From Oscillospiraceae bacterium (GTDB lineage: Bacteria > Bacillota > Clostridia > Oscillospirales > Ruminococcaceae), in the NCBI GenBank assembly GCA_017427265.1, contig JAFRTG010000032.1:117015-181014 (forward strand): a DNA stretch of 64,000 bases, written 5' to 3'. Shown one piece after another: positions 6,834 to 63,713 of this stretch. A model generated the notes under the pieces. That model saw only the letters and a program-made list of their open reading frames with translations, ran no database searches and was not told where the DNA came from. The translations under genes and the position numbers were made by a program. The first letter of the stretch is position 1, and each line of letters opens with the position of its first letter.

Positions 6834-6871
6834 AGATATGTATAATTATATCCGAAAGGCAGGAATCTAAA

Positions 6872-8809
6872 ATGGGTCTTACCATGACAGAAAAAATCCT
6901 CTCTGCACATCTTGTGGAGGGCGAGCTTGTCCGCGGCACCGAGATCGGCATCCGCATTGACCAGACACTGACGCAGGATGCGACCGGCACCATGGCGTAT
7001 CTTGAATTTGAAGCAATGGGTGTGCCGCGCGTCCGCACCGAGCGTTCCGTCGCATACATCGACCACAATACGCTCCAGAACGGCTTTGAAAACGCCGACG
7101 ACCATCGCTTTATCGGCAGCTGCGCGAAGAAGCACGGCCTCTTTTTCTCCCGTCCGGGCAACGGCATCTGCCATCAGGTGCACCTGGAGCGCTTCGGCAT
7201 TCCCGGCAAGACCCTGATCGGTTCCGATTCCCATACTCCGACCGGCGGCGGCCTCGGTATGCTGGCCATCGGTGCAGGCGGCCTGGATGTTGCTGTCGCA
7301 ATGGGCGGCGGCGCATACTATATTACATGTCCGAAGGTTGTCAACGTGAAGCTCTCCGGCAAGCTCAGCCCGTGGGTCGCTGCAAAGGACGTCATCCTTG
7401 AGGTGCTGCGCAGAATGTCCGTCAAGGGCGGCGTCGGCAAGGTCATCGAATATACCGGCGAGGGCGTCAAGACACTGACCGTTCCGGAGCGTGCAACCAT
7501 CACCAACATGGGCGCAGAGCTCGGCGCAACGACCTCCGTATTCCCGTCTGACGAGATGACAAAGGCCTTCCTGAAGGCACAGCAGCGCGAGGAGGTATGG
7601 GTTCCGCTCGCAGCCGATCCCGATGCCGTTTACGACGAGGTCATCGAGATCGACCTCTCGAAGCTCGAACCGCTCGCAGCCTGCCCGCACTCCCCGGACA
7701 ATGTCAAGTCCATGAGCGAAATCGGCAAGCTGAAAATCGACCAGGTCTGCATCGGCTCCTGCACGAATTCCTCGCTGCTCGACATGATGAAGGTCGCCTA
7801 CATCCTCAAGGGCAAGACCGTCCATCCGGATGTTTCGCTCGCCATCGCACCGGGCTCCAAGCAGGTGCTCAATATGATCGCTGCAAACGGCGCGCTCGGC
7901 GACATGATCGACGCAGGCGCCCGTATTCTGGAATCCGCCTGCGGTCCGTGCATCGGCATGGGACAGTCGCCGAACTCCGCAGGTATCTCCCTGAGAACCT
8001 TCAACCGCAACTTTGAAGGCCGCTCCGGCACAAAGGACGGTCAGATCTATCTGGTTTCCCCGGAAACCGCTGCGGCTTCCGCACTGACCGGTTACCTGAC
8101 CGACCCGCGCACGCTCGGTGAAATGCCGGAATTCAAGCTGCCGGATGTCTTTACCGTCAACGACAACATGGTCACGCTCCCGGCTGAGGAGAAGGATATG
8201 GACAGCGTCGAGATCAAGCTCGGCCCGAACATCAAGCCGTATCCGGAAACCCATCCGCTGCTTGAGACCATCGACGCACCGGTCTCGCTCAAGGTCGGCG
8301 ACAACATCACCACAGACCACATCATGCCGGCAGGCGCAAAGATTCTGCCGCTGCGTTCCAATATTCCGAAGATCTCCGAGCACTGCTTTGCAGTCTGCGA
8401 CGAGGAATTCCCGAAGCGTGCCAAGGCACTCGGACAGAGCATCATCGTCGGCGGCGCAAACTACGGTCAGGGTTCTTCCCGTGAGCATGCTGCGCTCGCC
8501 CCGCTCTATCTCGGCGTCAAGGCCGTGCTGGTCAAGTCCTTTGCGCGTATTCACCGTGCAAACCTCATCAACGCAGGCATTCTGCCGCTGACCTTCGTCA
8601 ACGAGGCAGACTACGACAAGATCGCACAGGGCGATCAGCTGGAGCTCGCGGGCGTCCGCAAGGCCGTCGAGGAGGGCAGAACGGAACTGACTGTCATCGA
8701 CAAGACAAACGGCGCGGAGATTCCGGTGCTCTGTGAGCTGACCGGCCGTACCAAGGATATCATGCTCGCCGGCGGTCTGCTCGACTTCACCCGCGAAGCG
8801 CTGAAATAA
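6872..8809 (+). CDS. acn: Aconitate hydratase
   Basis: A 645-residue aconitase converting citrate to isocitrate through a [4Fe-4S] cluster. Seen: GSDSHTPTGGGLGMLAIGAGG, the three cluster Cys in GSCTNSS and ACGPCIGMG, and the mobile C-terminal domain with GGANYGQGSSREHAALAPLYLG and KSFARIHRANLIN. It is shorter than the AcnA type (about 890 residues) and fits the compact aconitase class common in Clostridia. The ribosome site is AGGAAT upstream of the ATG. It opens an operon with a small membrane protein, isocitrate dehydrogenase and Rex, so its job is the citrate-to-2-oxoglutarate branch that feeds glutamate synthesis in an anaerobe. Confidence 0.95.
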   Translation: MGLTMTEKILSAHLVEGELVRGTEIGIRIDQTLTQDATGTMAYLEFEAMGVPRVRTERSVAYIDHNTLQNGFENADDHRFIGSCAKKHGLFFSRPGNGICHQVHLERFGIPGKTLIGSDSHTPTGGGLGMLAIGAGGLDVAVAMGGGAYYITCPKVVNVKLSGKLSPWVAAKDVILEVLRRMSVKGGVGKVIEYTGEGVKTLTVPERATITNMGAELGATTSVFPSDEMTKAFLKAQQREEVWVPLAADPDAVYDEVIEIDLSKLEPLAACPHSPDNVKSMSEIGKLKIDQVCIGSCTNSSLLDMMKVAYILKGKTVHPDVSLAIAPGSKQVLNMIAANGALGDMIDAGARILESACGPCIGMGQSPNSAGISLRTFNRNFEGRSGTKDGQIYLVSPETAAASALTGYLTDPRTLGEMPEFKLPDVFTVNDNMVTLPAEEKDMDSVEIKLGPNIKPYPETHPLLETIDAPVSLKVGDNITTDHIMPAGAKILPLRSNIPKISEHCFAVCDEEFPKRAKALGQSIIVGGANYGQGSSREHAALAPLYLGVKAVLVKSFARIHRANLINAGILPLTFVNEADYDKIAQGDQLELAGVRKAVEEGRTELTVIDKTNGAEIPVLCELTGRTKDIMLAGGLLDFTREALK

Positions 8810-10985: not shown

Positions 10986-12623
10986 ATGCACATGAGAAAA
11001 ACACTTTCTGCAGTGCTGAGCCTCTGCCTGACGGCTTCTGCACTGTGCGGCACAGCGTCTTTTCCGTCGCTGGCAGCTGAAGCACCGCAGCTTGTTTTTG
11101 ACATTCGCTCGGAAGGCAAGAACGAGATCGTCCTCTCCGCCGATCAGCTCAAGGAGGGCGACGTCACCGTTCCGGTTGATATTTTCATCCCGTCCAATCC
11201 CGGCGTGGCAGGCATCAACCTGAAGCTGCAGGTCAATGACGGTGCCTCCGACAACTACGGTCTGAAGCTGACAGACGGCGAATTTGCAAAGCCGTACTGC
11301 TTTGACAGCGCCTCGAACGGCGATCCGAACAAATGCTTCTATCCGCATTTTAATACGGATAAGATGAACCTCATCTGGACCTATTCACAGAATGCAGACA
11401 CCAATGCCGATGCTGCTGCAGAAGCAAAAACCTATGCATGGGATTCCACCGTGGACTGGGCTTATCAGAATGCATTTGCAAAGGCAAATCTCGTCATTCC
11501 GAAGGGCACCCCGGCAGGTGACTACACGCTCGATATCCTGAAGGATGCATACATCAACGGGCTGAGCGACGGCAAGGCCAAGAGCGCTTCCAAGTGCACC
11601 GCGATCGCGGATGACGAAGAGAAGAGCGTCCAGGATGTCAGCTTCCGCTCTGTTCCGCTCAATGTCAAGGTCAATGCCACCGCGGAAGAGGACTGGAAGG
11701 ATTCCTACGACATCGAAGGCGAAGGCCATTACCTCATCATCGGTGATGTCTGCGGCAAGCCCGGCGAAAACGTCGATGTGCCGATTTACGTCTACAATGA
11801 CAAGGGCACGGCAGGTATGCAGCTGTTCTTCAAGCTCAGCGACGGCCTCAAGCTCACAGACTGGGACGAGGATCTGAACAATTCTGCGTACATCATCACA
11901 AACACGCAGTTCAATCCCGATGCTGATCCGGCAATCTTCGTTTTTGCTTCCGATAAGGGAACGGTTGCAAAGAACGGCAGCGTTGTGATTTATCTGTCGG
12001 TTCAGATTCCGGAGGATGCAGAGGCCGGAAAGACCTATGACATCGACTTCTGCCTGAAGGGCGCAGATAATTCCGTCATCAAGGTTGTTGACTATGATAC
12101 GGATCCGCTTGATGTTGAATTCTACGGCGGCTCTGTGACCGTCCTCTCCGACAAGGAACCGGCACTCAACCGCAATGCAGTCTCCTTCTCCGCAATCGGC
12201 CAGACCTCCAATCTGACGCTGTTCAACACGACCGGCGCCGTCGAGTGGACGAGCTCTGATCCGAGCGTCGCAACCGTTGACAAGAACGGCTTTGTCAAGG
12301 CTACCGGCCTCGGCTCCGCGACCATCACCGCAACCAACAACGGCAAGCCCTATACCTGCGCTGTCAATGTCGGTCTGCGCGGCGATATCAACCGCAACGG
12401 CAAAATTGACATCAGCGATACCCGCCTTGTTCTGAAGGAATATACCTATCAGATGGTCGGTGCAGAAAGTGTTCTGGACGAAGCACAGCGGAAGATTGCC
12501 GACATCAACGAAAACGGCAAGATTGATCTGAGAGACACTCGTCTGCTCCTGAAATACTACACCTACACGGTCGTTTCCCATATCGACTGCACATGGGATG
12601 ATGTCATCAACGGAAAGCTCTGA
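10986..12623 (+). CDS. Scaffoldin with two cohesin-like modules, Ig-like module and dockerin
   Basis: A 545-residue secreted scaffoldin. Signal peptide about 1-31; first cohesin-like module about 33-232 (DVTVPVDIFIPSNPGVAGIN); second about 250-390 (ENVDVPIYVYNDKGTAGMQ ... SVVIYLSVQIPEDAEAGKTY); BIG2-type Ig-like module about 397-462 (WTSSDPSVATVDKNGFVKAT); dockerin about 464-530 with two clear calcium loops, DINRNGKIDISD and DINENGKIDLRD. Cohesins hold enzyme dockerins; the dockerin would dock it on another scaffoldin, so it is an adaptor. The dockerin helices read DTRLVLKEY and DTRLLLKYY, unlike the DAVLL type of the enzymes in this window. It lies 47 bp after rex with no terminator seen between. 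Confidence 0.85.
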   Translation: MHMRKTLSAVLSLCLTASALCGTASFPSLAAEAPQLVFDIRSEGKNEIVLSADQLKEGDVTVPVDIFIPSNPGVAGINLKLQVNDGASDNYGLKLTDGEFAKPYCFDSASNGDPNKCFYPHFNTDKMNLIWTYSQNADTNADAAAEAKTYAWDSTVDWAYQNAFAKANLVIPKGTPAGDYTLDILKDAYINGLSDGKAKSASKCTAIADDEEKSVQDVSFRSVPLNVKVNATAEEDWKDSYDIEGEGHYLIIGDVCGKPGENVDVPIYVYNDKGTAGMQLFFKLSDGLKLTDWDEDLNNSAYIITNTQFNPDADPAIFVFASDKGTVAKNGSVVIYLSVQIPEDAEAGKTYDIDFCLKGADNSVIKVVDYDTDPLDVEFYGGSVTVLSDKEPALNRNAVSFSAIGQTSNLTLFNTTGAVEWTSSDPSVATVDKNGFVKATGLGSATITATNNGKPYTCAVNVGLRGDINRNGKIDISDTRLVLKEYTYQMVGAESVLDEAQRKIADINENGKIDLRDTRLLLKYYTYTVVSHIDCTWDDVINGKL

Positions 12624-44219: not shown

Positions 44220-46097
44220 TCACGCAGGAAATTCACGGATGAGTTTTGCAATATACCGTAAAATGACGGTTACATCCTCCTCCGTGACGCCCTGTTTGCC
44301 GTCACAGTCCGCGTTGCGCAGACCGGCATCGGTGATTTTCGCACTGGAATCGCCGCTGAGAAACTTCAGGATCAGCACCGCGTCCGAAACGTCAACCGTG
44401 CTGCTGCAGTCCGCATCGCCGCTAACCTTTTCCGGCAGAACCGGCGTTGTCGCCGTTGTGACGGTTGTGGTCGTTGTCGTTGTCGCGGTGGTAGTAGTTG
44501 TTGTCGTGACAGTTGTCGTCGTTGTGGTCACCGGCGGCTCGGTTTCCGATTCCCGCGGCATAACCGCAACAAAATAGTTGACGGCATTCTGCCCGGTCAT
44601 GTTGCTGCCGAGCGTGACAGTCTCGCCGGCATTCAGCTCCTTTGCATACGGGATATAGGAAACGGTATTGGAGCTGTTGACCATTCTGTCGAGCTGTGTC
44701 CAGCCCTTGAGCCACGGCGGGTTGATGCCCTGCTCGATCGGCAGGCGCATATCCAGCAGAACGTAAACCGTGATATCCTGCGCGGCAGTCAGCTCCGCAA
44801 GATCGCCGCTGTAGGTTTTGGAATCGCAGGCCGGCTGCACATATTCCGCGTTGAGAATCTCCGCGGTCGTTGTCACGACTGTAAAATCGCGGTCGCCGTA
44901 AATCTTGCTGCCGACATTGAGCTTGCGCTGAATGCTCCACTTGTCCCCGTGACTGATATCGTGCACGACCAGCTTCGAGATCAGCGTGCCGGAATATTCC
45001 GGCTCCGTGACCGTCCCGGGGTCGGTGCCGGGCTCCAGCAGCGCAAGGCCGGTAACATTCTTGCCCCAGTTGCCATACCACGCATAGCCGGTGCGGCGCT
45101 CCTTGCTGATCTCCGAGACATCGTAGTGCACGGAGCTGTCACGGTCGGAAAAGAGCGGGCGCTCTGTTCCGAGTTCATAGAACCGCGCCCAGAGCGGCGA
45201 GGCATTCGCATCCTGCACGACGACCTTGTCATCGCCCTGTTTGACAAACGCAATGCCGTTCAGCTGCACCTTTTTGAACCATGTAATCGCCGCATTGACG
45301 CTCTCAATCAGGTCGTTCCGGCCGGTTTCCTTTGCCATCTGATAGAGGAACTGCACCACACCGGCACTCTCGCTCGAACAGGTCGAGGGCAGCTCGTAAG
45401 CACGCGCCGGCGCCGGTGCAAGCGTATTCTCATCATGCTGCTGACACCATGCGGTCTTTACACCGTTGTTGACAATCTGCATATTCAGCAGACACTGAAC
45501 GCCCTTTTCCAGCGCGGCAGAAGCCTTCTGCGCATAGGCATCGCTGACCGCCGTGAAGTCGCCGGATTTCCGGCTCATTTCCTTCAGAATGCTCATGACA
45601 TGCAGATAGGCGCCGTCATTCAGCGTGATGTGCGCATGATACGTGCCGGGCGTATTGAGGCATTGCATGAAGCCGCCGTTGCTGTACTGCATTTTGAACA
45701 GGCAGTCCACGCCGCGCATCGCGCAGTCCAGATATTTCTGCTGCTTTGTCTGCGCATAGGTGCGCATCAGAAAGCGAATCTGCGAAGTGGTCGCATCGTT
45801 GTCGATTGTCGAATGTGCCCAGTCGCCGGTATGCGCAGTGGCCATGCCCTTCTGCCAGCCGCCCTCATTCGCAACCTGATACTGAATGCAGGCGTCTGCA
45901 ACGGTAATCGCTTCCTGCGAGCCAAACCAGTCTGCCGATTTTTTCAGATAATCCGACCAAGGGTAATCCTCCTCAGCCGCGGAGGCCGTCAGATACGGCT
46001 GCACGCTGCCGGAAAACTGCGGCGGAAGCGCCTGGCTGCTTCCGGCCAGCAGCACGGCACTCATCAGCACCGCAGTCAGTTTTTTCGCGTATTTCAT
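44220..46097 (-). CDS. Dockerin-bearing pectate lyase, PL10-like
   Basis: A 625-residue secreted enzyme. Signal peptide about 1-40; pectate lyase domain about 48-370 with STIDNDATTSQIRFLMRTYA, FKMQYSNGGFMQCL, YHAHITLNDGAYLHVMSIL and RAYELPSTCSSESAGVVQFL, matching the PL10 family that cleaves polygalacturonate by beta-elimination; then an unrecognised beta-rich module (about 375-525), a Thr-rich linker and a C-terminal dockerin (about 558-625: DADCSSTVDVSDAVLILKFL, DCDGKQGVTEEDVTVILRYI). The second calcium loop is degenerate. The dockerin would attach it to a cohesin of the cellulosome. The linker codons form a long GTT/GTC/GTG-rich tract on the plus strand. Confidence 0.88.
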   Translation of the reverse strand: MKYAKKLTAVLMSAVLLAGSSQALPPQFSGSVQPYLTASAAEEDYPWSDYLKKSADWFGSQEAITVADACIQYQVANEGGWQKGMATAHTGDWAHSTIDNDATTSQIRFLMRTYAQTKQQKYLDCAMRGVDCLFKMQYSNGGFMQCLNTPGTYHAHITLNDGAYLHVMSILKEMSRKSGDFTAVSDAYAQKASAALEKGVQCLLNMQIVNNGVKTAWCQQHDENTLAPAPARAYELPSTCSSESAGVVQFLYQMAKETGRNDLIESVNAAITWFKKVQLNGIAFVKQGDDKVVVQDANASPLWARFYELGTERPLFSDRDSSVHYDVSEISKERRTGYAWYGNWGKNVTGLALLEPGTDPGTVTEPEYSGTLISKLVVHDISHGDKWSIQRKLNVGSKIYGDRDFTVVTTTAEILNAEYVQPACDSKTYSGDLAELTAAQDITVYVLLDMRLPIEQGINPPWLKGWTQLDRMVNSSNTVSYIPYAKELNAGETVTLGSNMTGQNAVNYFVAVMPRESETEPPVTTTTTTVTTTTTTTATTTTTTTVTTATTPVLPEKVSGDADCSSTVDVSDAVLILKFLSGDSSAKITDAGLRNADCDGKQGVTEEDVTVILRYIAKLIREFPA

Positions 46098-51272: not shown

Positions 51273-54200
51273 TCATGACGGAAGTTTGTCGAGTGGGAAC
51301 TGATCAAACGAAATCTTCTTCACAATAAACATCAGAATTGCAGTCAGATCGTTCTCATCGAGTTCGCCCTTGATGACATTCGCGTTCTCCTTGCCCGAAT
51401 CCGTGATCTTCGCGCTGGAATCGCCGCTGAGGAACCGTGCAAGCAGAACAGCATCGGAAACATCAATACGTGCCTCCGGCGTGCTGCCGTCAGAACCGTC
51501 CACATTGCCCCAATCAGTTGGCGGCCGCATCCCGGTCGTCGTCACCAGTGTTGTTGTCGTCTGCGTTCCCGTTGTCAGTACGGTCGTCTGTGTTGTGGTC
51601 GTCTGCGTTTCAGCCGTTGTTGTGGTGGTCACAGGAGGCGGAACAGGCGTACCGGGATCCTGCATGAAGTCCGCCAGCCATGCAAGCGATGCATTCCAGT
51701 CAAGCGAGACCGCGTTGGTAGACCATGCCTCGACATCATCAACATAGAATCTCTGCGACGGATTGTCTTTTACCTGCGGATCAAAGCCGAGTGAAAGCAT
51801 TGTCGGATCACCCAGACAATACACACTCGGACCGCCGGCGATTACGCCGTCCGGTGCCATCGGGAAATAGCTGTCCATTTCGTATGCCCAATATTTGTGA
51901 TTCGGATTCCGGAGCTTATAGGAACCGTAGCCGCTGATAAAGGAGAAGGAAAGCGGATTGCAGCCGAGCAGGTAGTTCATACCGCTCTGCACGCCGTTCA
52001 GATACTTGGCTTCGCCTGTCAGGCCATAGGCATAGGCCATCACGATCATATTATTCATCGCGCTGCCGTTGGAGCCGTATTCATAGCCGTGAATGTAGAG
52101 GAATCCGTCCATCGGATCATTGTAGCCTTTGTCGTCATTGCGGTACGGAACACCGTATCCCTGCTTTTGCGCCGTTTCTGCATACGAATCAGCAGTCTGA
52201 ATGACAGAATCATTCAGCTTTTTCCGCTGCTCGGCGGTCAGACGCTCCGCATGCAGCATCAGATCAAGCGAACCCGCAGCAGCCGTGTTGCCCCAGTTGA
52301 ATGCAGTATAGGAACCCTCGCCGTCTAAATTCTCGCCGCCGTTGATCTTATCCGGAACCGTAAATGCTTTGTCGTAATCCGAAAGATCCTTCAGATATTT
52401 CGCAGCATCGGCATCCTCCAGTTCTGCTGCGGAGAGATAAAGCTCACAGGCTGCCCAGTAGGCATCATCCGTGACATCAAAATCGCCGTAGGGGTCACTG
52501 GTCTTTGCCTGCCACATCGGCGCGTACAGAGACACTTCGTTGATCTCCTCTGCCGGACAGCTAACATCTAAATACGGATGCCTTATTATTTTGAGATCCG
52601 CCTCATAGTAATATTTCTTGAATGCAGCATAAGCCTTCTTTGCTGCGTCGAGATAACCGGCAGCCTTTTTGGCGTCATAATCCTTCCAGAGTCTTGCAGC
52701 CTGTGCCGCACATGCCGCGTAGTTCAGCGTTGCAGCAAATGTCGGCGGCTTGACAATCCGGACCGTATCCCATTGTTCCACATAGTCCCATGCACGGACA
52801 GCAAGACCGGTCCGCTTCTGATCCTGCACCTTGCTGTAAACAAGACCTGCGTACTGACCCCATGTCGGCTCATCCTCCTGCACGACCATCTTTTCCATGA
52901 AGGCAAGCTCATATGCGCATTCATCGAGGACATCCGGCACCTTGTTTCCGGATTCCGGAACGACGACAGTACCGGACTTGTCTGCAAATTTCTGTTTGCC
53001 GGTCGCCTTTGTGGCTGCACGCTCATACATATTCTGCAGTGTCCAGAGCGCCATGCCGCCGCTGACAACACTCTTGCTGTGGTCAGCAGCCTCGTACCAG
53101 CCGCCGTTTGCCTTGATCTTCGAGGAAGCGTAGGTGCTGCTTGCCTCAGACGGGGTCTGATACTCATCCTTCCAGATCTTCTGAACAATGGCCGTGGTAT
53201 CTGCATCGCTGCCCGCATGTGCAAGTCCGCTCTTATCGCCGGAGGTAATGCAGTCCTCCAGAATATCCTGACCGGAACGGTTCTGATAGAAATAGTTGAC
53301 CGCATTGGTCAGCAGATCGTGACCACTGTCAGAATAAATATCATTGCCGATGTCAAATGCAAAGGAGCGCCACTCCTCACCCTTAATGCGCAGATAGTAT
53401 CTGCCGGGGGTCTTGAAGGCGGTGAAATCAATCTTGCAGACCGCATCGCCGGAATCCGGGTCACTCATCTTTTTGCCGGTCTTTCCGGTATAAGCGACCT
53501 TACCCGTGGATTCCTCCACCAGCTCATATTCATAGATATCCTTTGTCAGTTCGAGCTTGCCGCCGTAAGGATTATGAATGCCTGCATTATCGCCGAGCAC
53601 AGCAATCTTTTCGTAAGCGGCCGGATAGCCGATCTGGTTGACTGAAATGTAATTACCGTAAAGGCCACTTGCTGCACGTTCCGTCAGGTAGAACGGCGGG
53701 CTGGTATAACCGCAATCGTTCGTGCCGAGTTCCTCGCAGGTCAGACAGTTGATGTGCATGTCATCAAACCAGATCTCGTCGCCGTCCTGGGCGTTGCCCT
53801 TTTCACCGGCAGCATACTGGAAGGTCCATTCTTTGCCGTGCAAATCCTCCGTGCATTCAAAGGAACCCTCAAACGTCTGCCATTCAGTTGTCAGCTCGAC
53901 CGGTTCTCCCCACTTGCCGTTATCCATATGCGGACCGTTCACGAAGCCGTCGTTCGTCAGGGTACAGTACTCATGATAAGGCTGACCGATATCGCCGATA
54001 TGGGAGTTCATCTTCAGGCCGTTTCTGCTGGCCTTTGCACGGAAGCTGACCTTATAGGTGTGGTCTTTTTTGAAATTCAGCTTTCCGTGGCGGAACTGAA
54101 GATCCCAATAGTCGTCGGTACCCCTTGCAGTCAGAATCTGAATGTGGAATTCGCCGTCCTCGATCCTGAAGTTCTGCTTTGCGGGGCTGGTCGCACAGGC

Positions 54201-54362
54201 CTGCCACGGTGCGGATTTGTACGTGAATTCTGACTCCCCGCACAGTTCAACGGTTGTTTTTGCCGGTGCCGGGTCCGTCAGCGTCGCAGCGTTGATCGTA
54301 AGCGGCACGGTCATTGCAGCTGCGAGCAGCGCTGCAGTGACTCTGGTGATGTGCTTGTTCAT
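51273..54362 (-). CDS. Dockerin-bearing GH9-family protein, active site apparently lost
   Basis: A 1029-residue secreted protein: signal peptide about 1-25; CBM4-like module about 38-205; Ig-like N-terminal GH9 module about 238-335 (NQIGYPAAYEKIAVLGDNAG); GH9 domain about 345-895; Thr-rich linker; dockerin about 945-1029 ending QFPLDKLPS. The GH9 active site is altered. DAGD, which carries the catalytic base, reads EAAD at 424-427; the H-x-R motif reads N-H-K in NPNHKYW; the general-acid Glu is Ala884 in STNAVSLDW. The tandem paralogue keeps all of these. The reading frame is intact and the ribosome site (GGGAGGG) is strong, so the protein is probably made. It may bind glycan without cutting it. 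Confidence 0.9.
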   Translation of the reverse strand: MNKHITRVTAALLAAAMTVPLTINAATLTDPAPAKTTVELCGESEFTYKSAPWQACATSPAKQNFRIEDGEFHIQILTARGTDDYWDLQFRHGKLNFKKDHTYKVSFRAKASRNGLKMNSHIGDIGQPYHEYCTLTNDGFVNGPHMDNGKWGEPVELTTEWQTFEGSFECTEDLHGKEWTFQYAAGEKGNAQDGDEIWFDDMHINCLTCEELGTNDCGYTSPPFYLTERAASGLYGNYISVNQIGYPAAYEKIAVLGDNAGIHNPYGGKLELTKDIYEYELVEESTGKVAYTGKTGKKMSDPDSGDAVCKIDFTAFKTPGRYYLRIKGEEWRSFAFDIGNDIYSDSGHDLLTNAVNYFYQNRSGQDILEDCITSGDKSGLAHAGSDADTTAIVQKIWKDEYQTPSEASSTYASSKIKANGGWYEAADHSKSVVSGGMALWTLQNMYERAATKATGKQKFADKSGTVVVPESGNKVPDVLDECAYELAFMEKMVVQEDEPTWGQYAGLVYSKVQDQKRTGLAVRAWDYVEQWDTVRIVKPPTFAATLNYAACAAQAARLWKDYDAKKAAGYLDAAKKAYAAFKKYYYEADLKIIRHPYLDVSCPAEEINEVSLYAPMWQAKTSDPYGDFDVTDDAYWAACELYLSAAELEDADAAKYLKDLSDYDKAFTVPDKINGGENLDGEGSYTAFNWGNTAAAGSLDLMLHAERLTAEQRKKLNDSVIQTADSYAETAQKQGYGVPYRNDDKGYNDPMDGFLYIHGYEYGSNGSAMNNMIVMAYAYGLTGEAKYLNGVQSGMNYLLGCNPLSFSFISGYGSYKLRNPNHKYWAYEMDSYFPMAPDGVIAGGPSVYCLGDPTMLSLGFDPQVKDNPSQRFYVDDVEAWSTNAVSLDWNASLAWLADFMQDPGTPVPPPVTTTTTAETQTTTTQTTVLTTGTQTTTTLVTTTGMRPPTDWGNVDGSDGSTPEARIDVSDAVLLARFLSGDSSAKITDSGKENANVIKGELDENDLTAILMFIVKKISFDQFPLDKLPS

Positions 54363-54524
54363 ATTTGATACCCTCCCGTAAAAAATATATTTCAAGGATC
54401 GGTACAGATCCCTGATAACCCAAATGAAATGCCGGAATCGTGCAGATGATTGCATTTTGAATATACGAATCGTATATTACAGAAAGGATATTCCGCAGAG
54501 AAAAGCATAGAATATATCAATCAT

Positions 54525-54553
54525 ATTATACTACAAGTTAACTGGAATGTAAA
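54525..54553 (-). promoter_or_regulatory. Promoter of the GH9-like gene at 51273
   Basis: Minus-strand TTTACA (54553-54548), a 17-bp spacer and TATAAT (54530-54525). The flanks TCAAAAATCTCTTTACA and AACTTGTAGTATAAT match the promoter of the upstream GH9 gene closely. The leader is about 155 nt. Confidence 0.75.
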
Positions 54554-57962: not shown

Positions 57963-57991
57963 ATTATAATACAAGTTTGGTTTCTTGTAAA
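57963..57991 (-). promoter_or_regulatory. Promoter of the GH9 endoglucanase gene
   Basis: Minus-strand TTTACA (57991-57986), a 17-bp spacer and TATAAT (57968-57963). The transcript would have a leader of about 230 nt before the start codon in which no known riboswitch was recognised. Confidence 0.75.
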
Positions 57992-60046: not shown

Positions 60047-61759
60047 TTAGTAGTCGCAAACTGTCAGAAGTTGTCCGCCCCAACCGTCTAATACCTCTCC
60101 ATCCCGATTGGTAACAAAGCATTTGAACCACTTTCCGTTTAATTCAAGGCCGGCTCTGAACTGCAAAGCTGCGGTTTTGCTGCCCGGAAGGTTTACATTT
60201 TCATATTGTCCTGATGAGGAGTTACAGCACTTCCACTGATAGGTCAGACCTTCACCGAAAACATCACATTTGAATTTTGCAACTCCGCCGCGGTATACCG
60301 ATACAGGGCCTAAGGTAATGGGAAAATAAGCATTGCGAACATACTCATAAGGGCTCTTATGAATTTCATGGAGATGACTGAGAATTTCCGGCAGCTTTTG
60401 ATTCATCTGTTCCTTGGTATATGCCTTTCCGTATGAAAAACGCAGCATAGAAACGACCATTTCCTGTTCTGTCGGATTGTCATACTGATCCTTGAAAACG
60501 CAATCCTGATAAATGCCGTCCAGATCAAAGTCGTATTCCTGGATGCCGTCCTTATTTTTGTCCCGATACGATTTCATGCAGCGGGCAGCCAGAGCAGCGA
60601 TTTCGTCGTTGGAAGCGCTGTATTTGCTGAGCAGCGGATGCTCATATAAACCAATAAGTGCTGCTTGCGGTGTAACGTCATAGTACTGTAATACACTTTC
60701 ATCCGTTTTATGCTCTTCCTGCATTTTCTCATCGCTCAGAAGGAAGTACCGGTACAGAGTGGAATACGGATTTTGATTGAAATCGTTTTGATACTTAAGC
60801 GATTCCCATGACAGATCAGCCTGATAATATATCCCGTCGATCTTGACAAGATTCCATTGATGCCCCGGACAATAAAGCACATGCGCCTCAATACCCGCCT
60901 CTGCAAGCAGCATTTTATATGCAAGTGAGTACCCCTGACAAACCGACTCTCCGACGCCTTCTCCCCGGACATTCACTGCATAGCTGAGAAAAACCGAGGA
61001 GCCGGCATGATTTTCTGAATCTTTGAGGGATTCTCCGTTCTCGCAGTCCTCATACTTACAGTGGCGCAGGATCCAGTCATGCAGCTGCCGTGCTTTCAGC
61101 GCGTCATTCATCCACGGATCTGTCTCGGTCGCAACAATATACTCACAGATTTTCTGACAGTATTCATCCACAAATCCGACAGCTCTGCTTCTGCAGAAAT
61201 GATTGAGAACCGCAGTTCTGATGGCAGGATTGATGACCGGATATGTTCGGCCGTTGCTGTCTTTTTGATACAGCACAGCTTGTTCACCGTTGACTGTTTT
61301 GAGCGAAGGACAGTTCATAAAGCAGTAATTCCATCTGTCAGCTGATTCAGAACCTGCGGAAAGGTTCACCCTTTCCAACGAAGTACATCCATAAAATGCC
61401 ATCTTGCGCAATTTTGTATTTCCCTGAATCGTCAGATCCGTCATAGAAGTGCAGCGATCGAACGCATACATCTCAATTTCCTTCACGCATGAAGGAACAA
61501 CCAGTTTTGTCAGCGATTCGCCGGCAAATGCACGTTGACCGATTGTCGTAACCCGATGCCCGCCGAGCGACGTAGGAATCTGCAAATTCGTCGCAGAGCC
61601 TTTATACTCTTTAATCGTCGCTTCATTCGTCTGGGGATCCACGGTGTACTCGAATCCGTTTTCGATTGCGGCCTCCGCCGTCATCCCCGGCGAAAACGCT
61701 GCTGCAGCCAGACCGAGCAGTCCGACAGACAGCCATGTGATGAGCTTGCTGTGTTTCAT
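60047..61759 (-). CDS. Secreted leucine-rich-repeat / transglutaminase-like protein
   Basis: A 570-residue secreted protein. Signal peptide about 1-30; BspA-type leucine-rich repeats about 60-150 (VTTIGQRAFAGESLTKLVVP, CVKEIEMYAFDRCTSMTDL, LRKMAFYGCTSLERVNL); a transglutaminase-like domain about 215-330 with the triad pattern GESVCQGYSLAYKML (Cys), PGHQWNLVKIDG (His) and QADLSWE (Asp); then an uncharacterised part and a C-terminal Ig-like module (TYQWKCCNSSSGQY, FKCFVTNRDG). Such proteins may cleave or crosslink peptides at the cell surface. AGGAGG precedes the ATG. The promoter (61893-61864) is preceded by three 21-bp-spaced repeats, suggesting activator control. Confidence 0.85.
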   Translation of the reverse strand: MKHSKLITWLSVGLLGLAAAAFSPGMTAEAAIENGFEYTVDPQTNEATIKEYKGSATNLQIPTSLGGHRVTTIGQRAFAGESLTKLVVPSCVKEIEMYAFDRCTSMTDLTIQGNTKLRKMAFYGCTSLERVNLSAGSESADRWNYCFMNCPSLKTVNGEQAVLYQKDSNGRTYPVINPAIRTAVLNHFCRSRAVGFVDEYCQKICEYIVATETDPWMNDALKARQLHDWILRHCKYEDCENGESLKDSENHAGSSVFLSYAVNVRGEGVGESVCQGYSLAYKMLLAEAGIEAHVLYCPGHQWNLVKIDGIYYQADLSWESLKYQNDFNQNPYSTLYRYFLLSDEKMQEEHKTDESVLQYYDVTPQAALIGLYEHPLLSKYSASNDEIAALAARCMKSYRDKNKDGIQEYDFDLDGIYQDCVFKDQYDNPTEQEMVVSMLRFSYGKAYTKEQMNQKLPEILSHLHEIHKSPYEYVRNAYFPITLGPVSVYRGGVAKFKCDVFGEGLTYQWKCCNSSSGQYENVNLPGSKTAALQFRAGLELNGKWFKCFVTNRDGEVLDGWGGQLLTVCDY

Positions 61760-61863
61760 GCAATTATCCTCCTGAGAATGTTTTTGAATTTCCGGCGCAT
61801 CCTTTGCAGGCGAACAGCGCGCTTCCGGAAAGAAATGATGTAAGGGGAACTGTTCTGTCCGTT

Positions 61864-61893
61864 ATTATACAATCATCTTGCACAGGAAGTCAA
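61864..61893 (-). promoter_or_regulatory. Promoter of the LRR/transglutaminase-like gene
   Basis: Minus-strand TTGACT (61893-61888), an 18-bp spacer and TATAAT (61869-61864). The leader is about 95 nt. Confidence 0.7.
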
Positions 61894-61903
61894 CAGAATT
61901 TCA

Positions 61904-61955
61904 GTAAGCTGCAAAATAGGGCGGGTAAGCTGTATTTTTTCGCGGGTAAGTTGCA
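61904..61955 (-). promoter_or_regulatory. Three direct repeats at 21-bp spacing, probable activator site
   Basis: On the minus strand GCAACTTAC, ACAGCTTAC and GCAGCTTAC occur at exact 21-bp intervals (GTAAGYTG on the plus strand beginning at 61904, 61925 and 61946). Two of the units continue identically as CTTACCCGC. The last unit ends 10 bp before the -35 hexamer. Nine-base direct repeats phased at two helical turns are the known pattern of LytTR-type response regulators; the regulator is not in the window. Confidence 0.6.
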
Positions 61956-61963
61956 TCTCTGCA

Positions 61964-61996
61964 TAAAAAACAAGGCGCTGACTTTAGAGGAGCGCC
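61964..61996 (-). terminator. Terminator after the serine recombinase gene
   Basis: Minus strand: GGCGCT (61996-61991), an 11-nt loop, AGCGCC (61979-61974), then TTGTTTTTTATG. Confidence 0.7.
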
Positions 61997-62026
61997 GATA
62001 AAGAAGTATTTAAGATTTTAAGATGA

Positions 62027-63713
<1,687 letters not shown>

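Follow-up and report, generated by a model that had tools for sequence, protein, structure and literature searches.

In the 64,000-nucleotide stretch analysed here (the window), which is part of contig C30 of the 3.8-Mb genome G000 from an Oscillospiraceae bacterium, gene P0001 encodes a complete, dockerin-bearing protein of glycoside hydrolase family 9 (GH9) in which the catalytic site is largely replaced, and it stands in tandem with an intact paralogue, P0002. With slightly better than even confidence we read P0001 as a duplicated CelK/CbhA-type cellobiohydrolase that no longer works as a glycosidase and has been retained in the cellulosome as a non-catalytic subunit; this takes as observed the tandem order, the active-site replacement, the intact frame, the predicted fold, the kept CBM4, dockerin and promoter, the constraint and the relatives. 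Because the cutting site is largely replaced and related bacteria keep many such copies, the task of P0001 is probably one that involves no cutting, for instance to hold plant fibre for a cellulose-digesting complex. The initial annotation had called it a maintained pseudo-cellulase, a description well supported by the many relatives, a ratio of nonsynonymous to synonymous divergence (omega) well below 1, the kept promoter and the intact predicted fold. The named homologue records are mostly those of Ruminococcus or Oscillospiraceae.

Replacement of the P0001 active site

The frame and coordinates in the initial annotation hold: P0001 is a single open frame of 1029 codons with no stop or frameshift (Table 1). 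Its Pfam matches are CBM_4_9, CelD_N (the Ig-like module) and Glyco_hydro_9, with the CBM4 (PF02018) scoring 35.7 bits against a cut-off of 25.9, and it belongs to GH9 both by family (PF00759, above cut-off) and by predicted fold. The structure model has a mean predicted local distance difference test score (pLDDT) of 86.8 and superposes on CbhA at 35% identity across 585 aligned residues, with a root-mean-square deviation of 1.9 Å. The Pfam dockerin family has no match in the full protein and gives an E value of 0.015 with the tail alone. A profile (A5) built from 14 dockerin tails of the P0001 kind does match solved Ruminococcus flavefaciens dockerins in a search of the PDB (5m2s_B at 1.2e-12, 5m2o_B at 2.3e-12, and also 5n5p), and 12 of its 14 members match Dockerin_1 with E values of up to 0.1. 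The three accessory modules described at the outset are thus all kept, the CBM4 and Ig by Pfam and the dockerin by the A5 profile only. G000 has 22 cohesin matches (18 above cut-off) and 129 dockerin matches, so that a cellulosome is present for P0001 to join.

The solved structures nearest to the GH9 domain are those of CbhA of Clostridium thermocellum (1ut9 and 1rq5). In the DAGD motif of GH9 enzymes the second Asp is described as the catalytic base and the first as a supporting Asp (PMC6032398). In the alignment with CbhA, the supporting Asp corresponds to E424 of P0001, the Gly to A426, the His and Arg to N821 and K823, and the acid to A884. We take the general-acid Glu of CbhA to be E795 and H-x-R to be the second GH9 signature. 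By the features of a GH9 enzyme, then, the DAGD, the general-acid Glu and the H-x-R of P0001 are all gone, and the base D427 alone is retained. Sequence and structural alignment bear out the replacements that had first been read by eye (DAGD to EAAD, H-x-R to N-H-K, acid Glu to Ala); the wider statement that the residues defining GH9 catalysis were lost is right for the supporting Asp, the His/Arg pair and the acid, and goes too far for the base. Six further changes (Y431S, H510S, H513Q, H515Q, W517R and W762Y) all fall at positions that are invariant in 58 of 58 intact homologues. Conserved GH9 sites were defined from the 58 intact rows, and P0001 departs at 18 of the 52 that lie within 10 residues of a catalytic residue, and at 34 of the 189 others (Fisher p 0.013). 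The remaining nine GH9 genes of G000 retain their catalytic motifs (L005 was read by eye); with the enrichment of departures near the catalytic residues, this means that the active-site change in P0001 exceeds chance.

P0002 has the same architecture as P0001 and all five catalytic letters of CbhA, and the two GH9 domains are 64% identical. The CBM4 and dockerin of P0001 are each nearest to those of P0002 (0.72 for both modules; the means for six other intact copies are 0.59 for the CBM4 and 0.49 for the dockerin), so local duplication or gene conversion between the two genes is possible. P0001 resembles CbhA and CelK, the GH9 cellobiohydrolases of C. thermocellum, in fold and in the order CBM4-Ig-GH9, which we presume to be that of CbhA, its CBM4 and GH9 having been matched separately here; it differs from them in that its acid, His/Arg pair and supporting Asp are replaced. 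The best NCBIfam match of P0001 is the CelK family NF049990, at 412 bits (533 for P0002), both far below the equivalog cut-off of 1700.

Table 1. Coordinates within the window of P0001, its modules and replaced residues, its paralogue and nearby expression signals.
Feature	Coordinates	Strand	Remarks
Pseudo-GH9 gene P0001	51273..54362	-	1029 aa: signal peptide (by eye), CBM4, Ig, GH9, linker, dockerin; from open frame, Pfam and model
CBM4 module	53820..54215	-	Residues 50-181; PF02018, E 1.3e-8; matched to solved CelK/CbhA CBM4 (3p6b/3k4z)
Ig-like CelD_N module	53376..53654	-	Residues 237-329; PF02927, E 1.4e-18
GH9 domain	51675..53318	-	Residues 349-896
C-terminal dockerin, R. flavefaciens group I-like	51276..51521	-	Residues 948-1029; profile A5 against PDB
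EAAD replacing DAGD	53082..53093	-	Residues 424-427; base D427 kept
SKVQDQKR (residues 510-517) replacing HKLHDHKW	52812..52841	-	Stretch covers residues 508-517
Y762	52077..52079	-	Trp in 58/58 intact homologues, in 0/38 broken ones
N-H-K replacing H-H-R	51894..51902	-	Residues 821-823; H-H-R in P0002
Ala884 replacing general-acid Glu	51711..51713	-	Aligned to CbhA, where 1rq5 has Gln
Intact paralogue P0002	54667..57723	-	Directly upstream, same strand; all five diagnostic residues kept
P0001 promoter TTTACA-17-TATAAT	54525..54553	-	11/12 consensus match; half of spacer (AACTTGTA) common to P0002
P0002 promoter TTTACA-17-TATAAT	57963..57991	-	Promoter scan
Ribosome-binding site GGGAGGG	54371..54377	-	By eye; ends 8 nt upstream of ATG
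Terminator-like hairpin 3' of P0001	51218..51232	-	Scan: 8 such sites in window, 7.2 expected by chance

Broken GH9 copies and the selection on them

Five diagnostic positions (424, 427, 821, 823 and 884) were read in the relatives, an intact copy reading DDHRE. Counts of broken copies are lower bounds, the named records read being the best 80 of 254 relatives, with weaker homologues lying beyond these. At least one broken copy is present in 17 of the 30 genomes of the genus, G000 included, with G025 and G026 read from partial genes and the copy in G012 a distant homologue; 15 of the 17 also carry a copy that reads intact. Broken copies are found in many metagenome assemblies and in the isolates R. 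flavefaciens YL228, MA2007 and ATCC 19208, where all three read KDSEQ and intact copies are also present; L129 and L132 are the broken copies from YL228 and ATCC 19208. Of the 41 broken rows, 35 differ from the intact state at three or more of the diagnostic positions, and none of the 38 examined for it retains W762. Sequencing or assembly error was rejected as an explanation, the same KDSEQ state being seen in three isolate genomes and broken copies in many assemblies, as was a single lineage-specific accident, since broken copies recur across genomes and genera.

The arrangement of an intact copy followed by an eroded one recurs in L081 and L096, which are closely related genomes, and in L107. 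Contig C42 of G127, from another genus of the family, carries one intact copy and then copies reading EDHRE, EDLSD and EGNWG; L107 and this contig have identical active-site strings and are taken to be the same. This tandem set (L191, G127:C42:20500-40000), in which a single intact CelK-type GH9 gene is accompanied by three eroded ones, forms a natural series. A copy reading ESNRE lies elsewhere in the G127 genome, and L194, from a further genus of the family and outside the trees, has one eroded copy (ADHKE). In the set of rows that includes the G127 genes and L194, 32 of the 38 with readable positions are intact, some of the 38 being copies of one gene; the broken remainder of six consists of L194 and the four G127 genes, of which one enters twice.

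Across the broken copies the losses are concentrated near the catalytic residues (23 of 52 conserved sites, against 36 of 189 elsewhere, p 4e-4). Mean retention of conserved sites is 0.96 in the Ig module, 0.82 in the CBM4, 0.76 in the GH9 far from catalytic residues and 0.59 near them. Several broken copies (L045, L027, L031, L052, L053 and others) have a shorter canonical dockerin in place of the longer kind seen in the inspected intact rows, and these may dock elsewhere.

Selection was estimated on GH9-domain codons by the Nei-Gojobori method with 500 bootstraps. The broken pair of YL228 and ATCC 19208 has an omega of 0.30 (0.18-0.45), and the intact genes from these two strains have one of 0.17 (0.12-0.24); two broken orthologue pairs of G002 and G015 give 0.30 and 0.38, against 0.24 for the intact pair; and four further broken pairs give 0.29, 0.20, 0.19 and 0.27. 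The seven broken pairs therefore span 0.19-0.38, with upper 95% limits of no more than 0.48. Three-sequence arithmetic with two outgroups places the P0001 branch at 0.33 (0.24-0.43) and 0.31 (0.23-0.41), with a synonymous divergence of about 0.7. An earlier run agrees (0.20 for the broken and 0.02 for the intact pair of YL228 and MA2007); in it the very similar pairs of L081 and L096 yield unstable ratios, with a CBM4 omega above 1 in both their intact and their broken pair. Comparison of broken with intact pairs shows that selection on the broken copies is weaker than on the intact ones but far from neutral, and the comparison of related genomes proposed in the initial annotation accordingly puts the broken pairs well below 1.

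These values bear on whether P0001 is a functionless, decaying duplicate that persists through recency or gene conversion with its neighbour. Its long branch (0.58), its raised omega and a homologue (L050) split by a stop would fit decay, and the closeness of its CBM4 and dockerin to those of P0002 would fit conversion or local duplication. Set against this are a branch with synonymous divergence near 0.7 on which omega stays at 0.31-0.33 with an upper limit of 0.43, the 1029 open codons, the kept promoter, and orthologous broken copies that persist in genome pairs and in three isolates. P0001 has neither mark of a pseudogene, with no stop or frameshift in its frame and an omega (confidence interval 0.23-0.43) that is not near 1, and we regard decay as improbable.

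How often the active site was lost was addressed with two trees. A 50-row tree built after masking of the motif columns unites 18 broken rows in one clade (89/96) and places L034 and L059 in a different deep clade (98/99); these two are likely a second loss, although their branches are long and the tree program issued a warning about that join. A 72-row tree, which needs four changes, places 25 broken rows including P0001 in one clade (94/78) and three further broken groups elsewhere; one of the three, L096, pairs with the intact copy next to it (100/96). An approximately unbiased (AU) test, applied to groups picked after inspection of the tree, does not reject a single clade of all 34 broken rows (p 0.167) or sisterhood of P0001 and P0002 (p 0.134). 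The trees favour several losses.

Broken copies also differ in what has been added to them. An extra module is present in 15 of 41 broken rows and in none of 67 intact rows, although related rows are not independent and as few as three gains may be reflected. Four of the 15 have a doubled N-terminal part (in the two scanned, L122 and L135, Pfam finds the CBM4 twice), ten have a long tail after the dockerin, and one (L131) has another tail. The long tail comprises an SH3-like and an unknown domain in the seven rows inspected (L048, L127, L129, L132, L133, L142 and L145), with SH3_3 below cut-off in L129. This tail was rejected as a mark of dead enzymes, because it also stands behind other dockerins, one of them in a protein with a GH8 domain (L201). 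The unknown part is a conserved domain of about 190 aa (KPVIYLYP...VVEWGG) behind the SH3-like domain at 6860-7669 (+) of L129, with homologues in L197-L204, and lies C-terminal to the dockerins of several proteins, one with GH8; Pfam gives it weak SH3_3 and SspH matches only, and no NCBIfam family is matched.

Possible roles of a probably non-catalytic GH9 protein

The replaced residues make a strong case that P0001 does not hydrolyse glucan, and since its CBM4 and dockerin are kept, it plausibly binds cellulose or occupies scaffold sites. A plausible scenario is that P0001 would be exported, that its dockerin would insert into a scaffoldin cohesin, and that its CBM4, perhaps with a remodelled GH9 cleft, would grip beta-glucan chains without cleaving them. 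It could in this way target or tether the complex. According to PMC2930009, the known scaffoldins of R. flavefaciens are without carbohydrate-binding modules (CBMs), and the gene for the cellulose-binding protein CttA lies in the same cluster; subunits of this type would thus have a place.

Several observations weigh against a non-catalytic subunit. The base D427 is kept in P0001 and in 22 of 38 broken rows, and Asp888, which is Asn in all 58 intact copies, lies four residues from the lost acid; altered or weak hydrolysis would thus be conceivable, and D888 with E424 might supply an alternative acid/base pair. The cleft itself may not bind sugar, because W762, W517, H513 and others, to which we attribute a sugar-binding role, are missing from it. 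Constraint on the broken copies is weaker than on matched intact genes (0.30 against 0.17; 0.30 and 0.38 against 0.24). Three of the 41 broken rows (L122, L136 and L107, all without W762) have a single diagnostic position changed and may be active, L050 is split by an in-gene stop, and one stop each is reported for L046 and L049. The small number of gains that could underlie the extra modules counts on the same side.

Some of these points would also fit a P0001 that still acts as a glycosidase, by a changed mechanism or on a changed substrate: D427, together with E424 and a replacement acid, for which D888 is a candidate, would then cleave a different beta-glucan. The intact predicted fold, selection below neutrality, and the retention of E884 in 7 of 38 broken rows could be read likewise. 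No new acid is fixed in the class, however, since position 884 holds nine residues besides Glu across the 38 broken rows and position 888 holds S, E, Q, D, T, G or C, and P0001 also lacks the His/Arg pair along with W762, W517 and H513; we consider continued catalysis unlikely. A further possibility is that P0001 acts by occupancy, filling cohesin sites and so setting spacing or enzyme ratio, or as a decoy that absorbs cellulase inhibitors aimed at the intact copy. A dockerin of the same kind as that of P0002 (72% identical), the tandem pairing with a shared promoter, and loss of the active site with the scaffold kept would all suit such a role. Conserved CBM4 sites are nevertheless largely kept (0.82) and four rows have a doubled N-terminal part, both of which point to binding; we know of no proteinaceous inhibitor of GH9 enzymes, though no search was made, and this counts against the decoy variant. 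We judge occupancy rather improbable.

Pseudo-enzymes with glycoside-hydrolase folds are already known in other families. Some beetle GH45 proteins lack catalytic residues. Like the GH9 proteins considered here, those of beetle GH45 belong to a functionally diversified cellulase family (PMC6509783), but they are animal proteins without dockerins. Chitinase-like lectins have a GH18 hydrolase fold without chitinase activity and some bind sugars (PMC3662789); they are of another family and have no cellulosome. The CtCE2 domain of C. thermocellum CtCel5C-CE2 likewise uses an enzyme active site to bind cellulose non-catalytically (PMC2661963), but retains its esterase activity. Closest to the role proposed for P0001 is CttA, described as a cellulose-binding, dockerin-borne non-enzyme (PMC2930009). 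CttA differs in having two CBMs of its own (PMC2721979), where P0001 would use a dead GH9, and in that its dockerin is group 4a-like and binds ScaE (PMC2930009), whereas that of P0001 is group I-like.

More tentatively, and with somewhat less than even confidence, we propose that ruminococcal cellulosomes repeatedly convert copies of CelK/CbhA-type exoglucanases to non-catalytic, dockerin-borne glucan binders with a GH9 fold. These would form a distinct class of subunit that supplies the substrate holding missing from the scaffoldins, with stepwise erosion of the active site and modules gained once catalysis is gone. Searches of open-access papers, without their supplements and without most of the subscription literature, turned up no account of broken ruminococcal GH9 copies. 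Papers that count GH9 modules in ruminococci list them as enzymes in the parts available (PMC2721979, PMC4081043, PMC2930009), and five CBM4-GH9 enzymes, for example, are attributed to R. flavefaciens FD-1 (PMC2721979). Should a substantial part of this branch be catalytically dead yet under selection, gut-metagenome estimates of enzyme numbers and activity would come out too high. A natural series running from intact through half-eroded to fully eroded copies, in some cases neighbours within a single genome, would then allow a direct test of a non-catalytic role of a cellulase fold, and dead GH9 subunits could serve as parts for designer cellulosomes.

Expression signals and other features of the window

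The good promoter (11 of 12 consensus positions) and ribosome-binding site (GGGAGGG) noted for P0001 at the outset are both present. P0001 and P0002 share the core TTTACA-N8-AACTTGTA-N-TATAAT, which is matched exactly nowhere else in G000. The four other G000 sites each have three mismatches, and the promoter as the mark of a wider regulon is unsupported. A related promoter (TTTACA, a spacer ending in TTGTAT, TATAAT) precedes many intact copies and the broken L041 and L051. Promoters matching at 11 or 12 of 12 positions are found in 25 of 39 broken (within 450 nt) and 41 of 83 intact upstream regions, where shuffled sequences would give 0 and 0.9.

We note that the 5' leader of P0001, between promoter and start codon, contains a terminator-like hairpin followed by a T-rich run (54392-54415, minus strand); it could be an attenuator, such sites being about as frequent as expected by chance. 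The terminator-like hairpin seen by eye between P0002 and P0001 is absent from the terminator scan list.

Among the other genes of the window, a pectic acid lyase (Pec_lyase; 44220-46097, minus strand) has a tail that is 55% identical to the dockerin region of P0001. A 545-aa protein about 39 kb from the GH9 pair (10986-12623, plus strand) combines a Big_2 domain and a dockerin with a cohesin match that is weak and below cut-off (22.2 bits); it may be a small scaffoldin of the adaptor kind. The window ends in a region of lower G+C (0.465), where a BspA-like leucine-rich-repeat protein (60047-61759) and a large serine recombinase (62046-63707) are encoded on the minus strand at 60047-63707 and may represent a mobile element.

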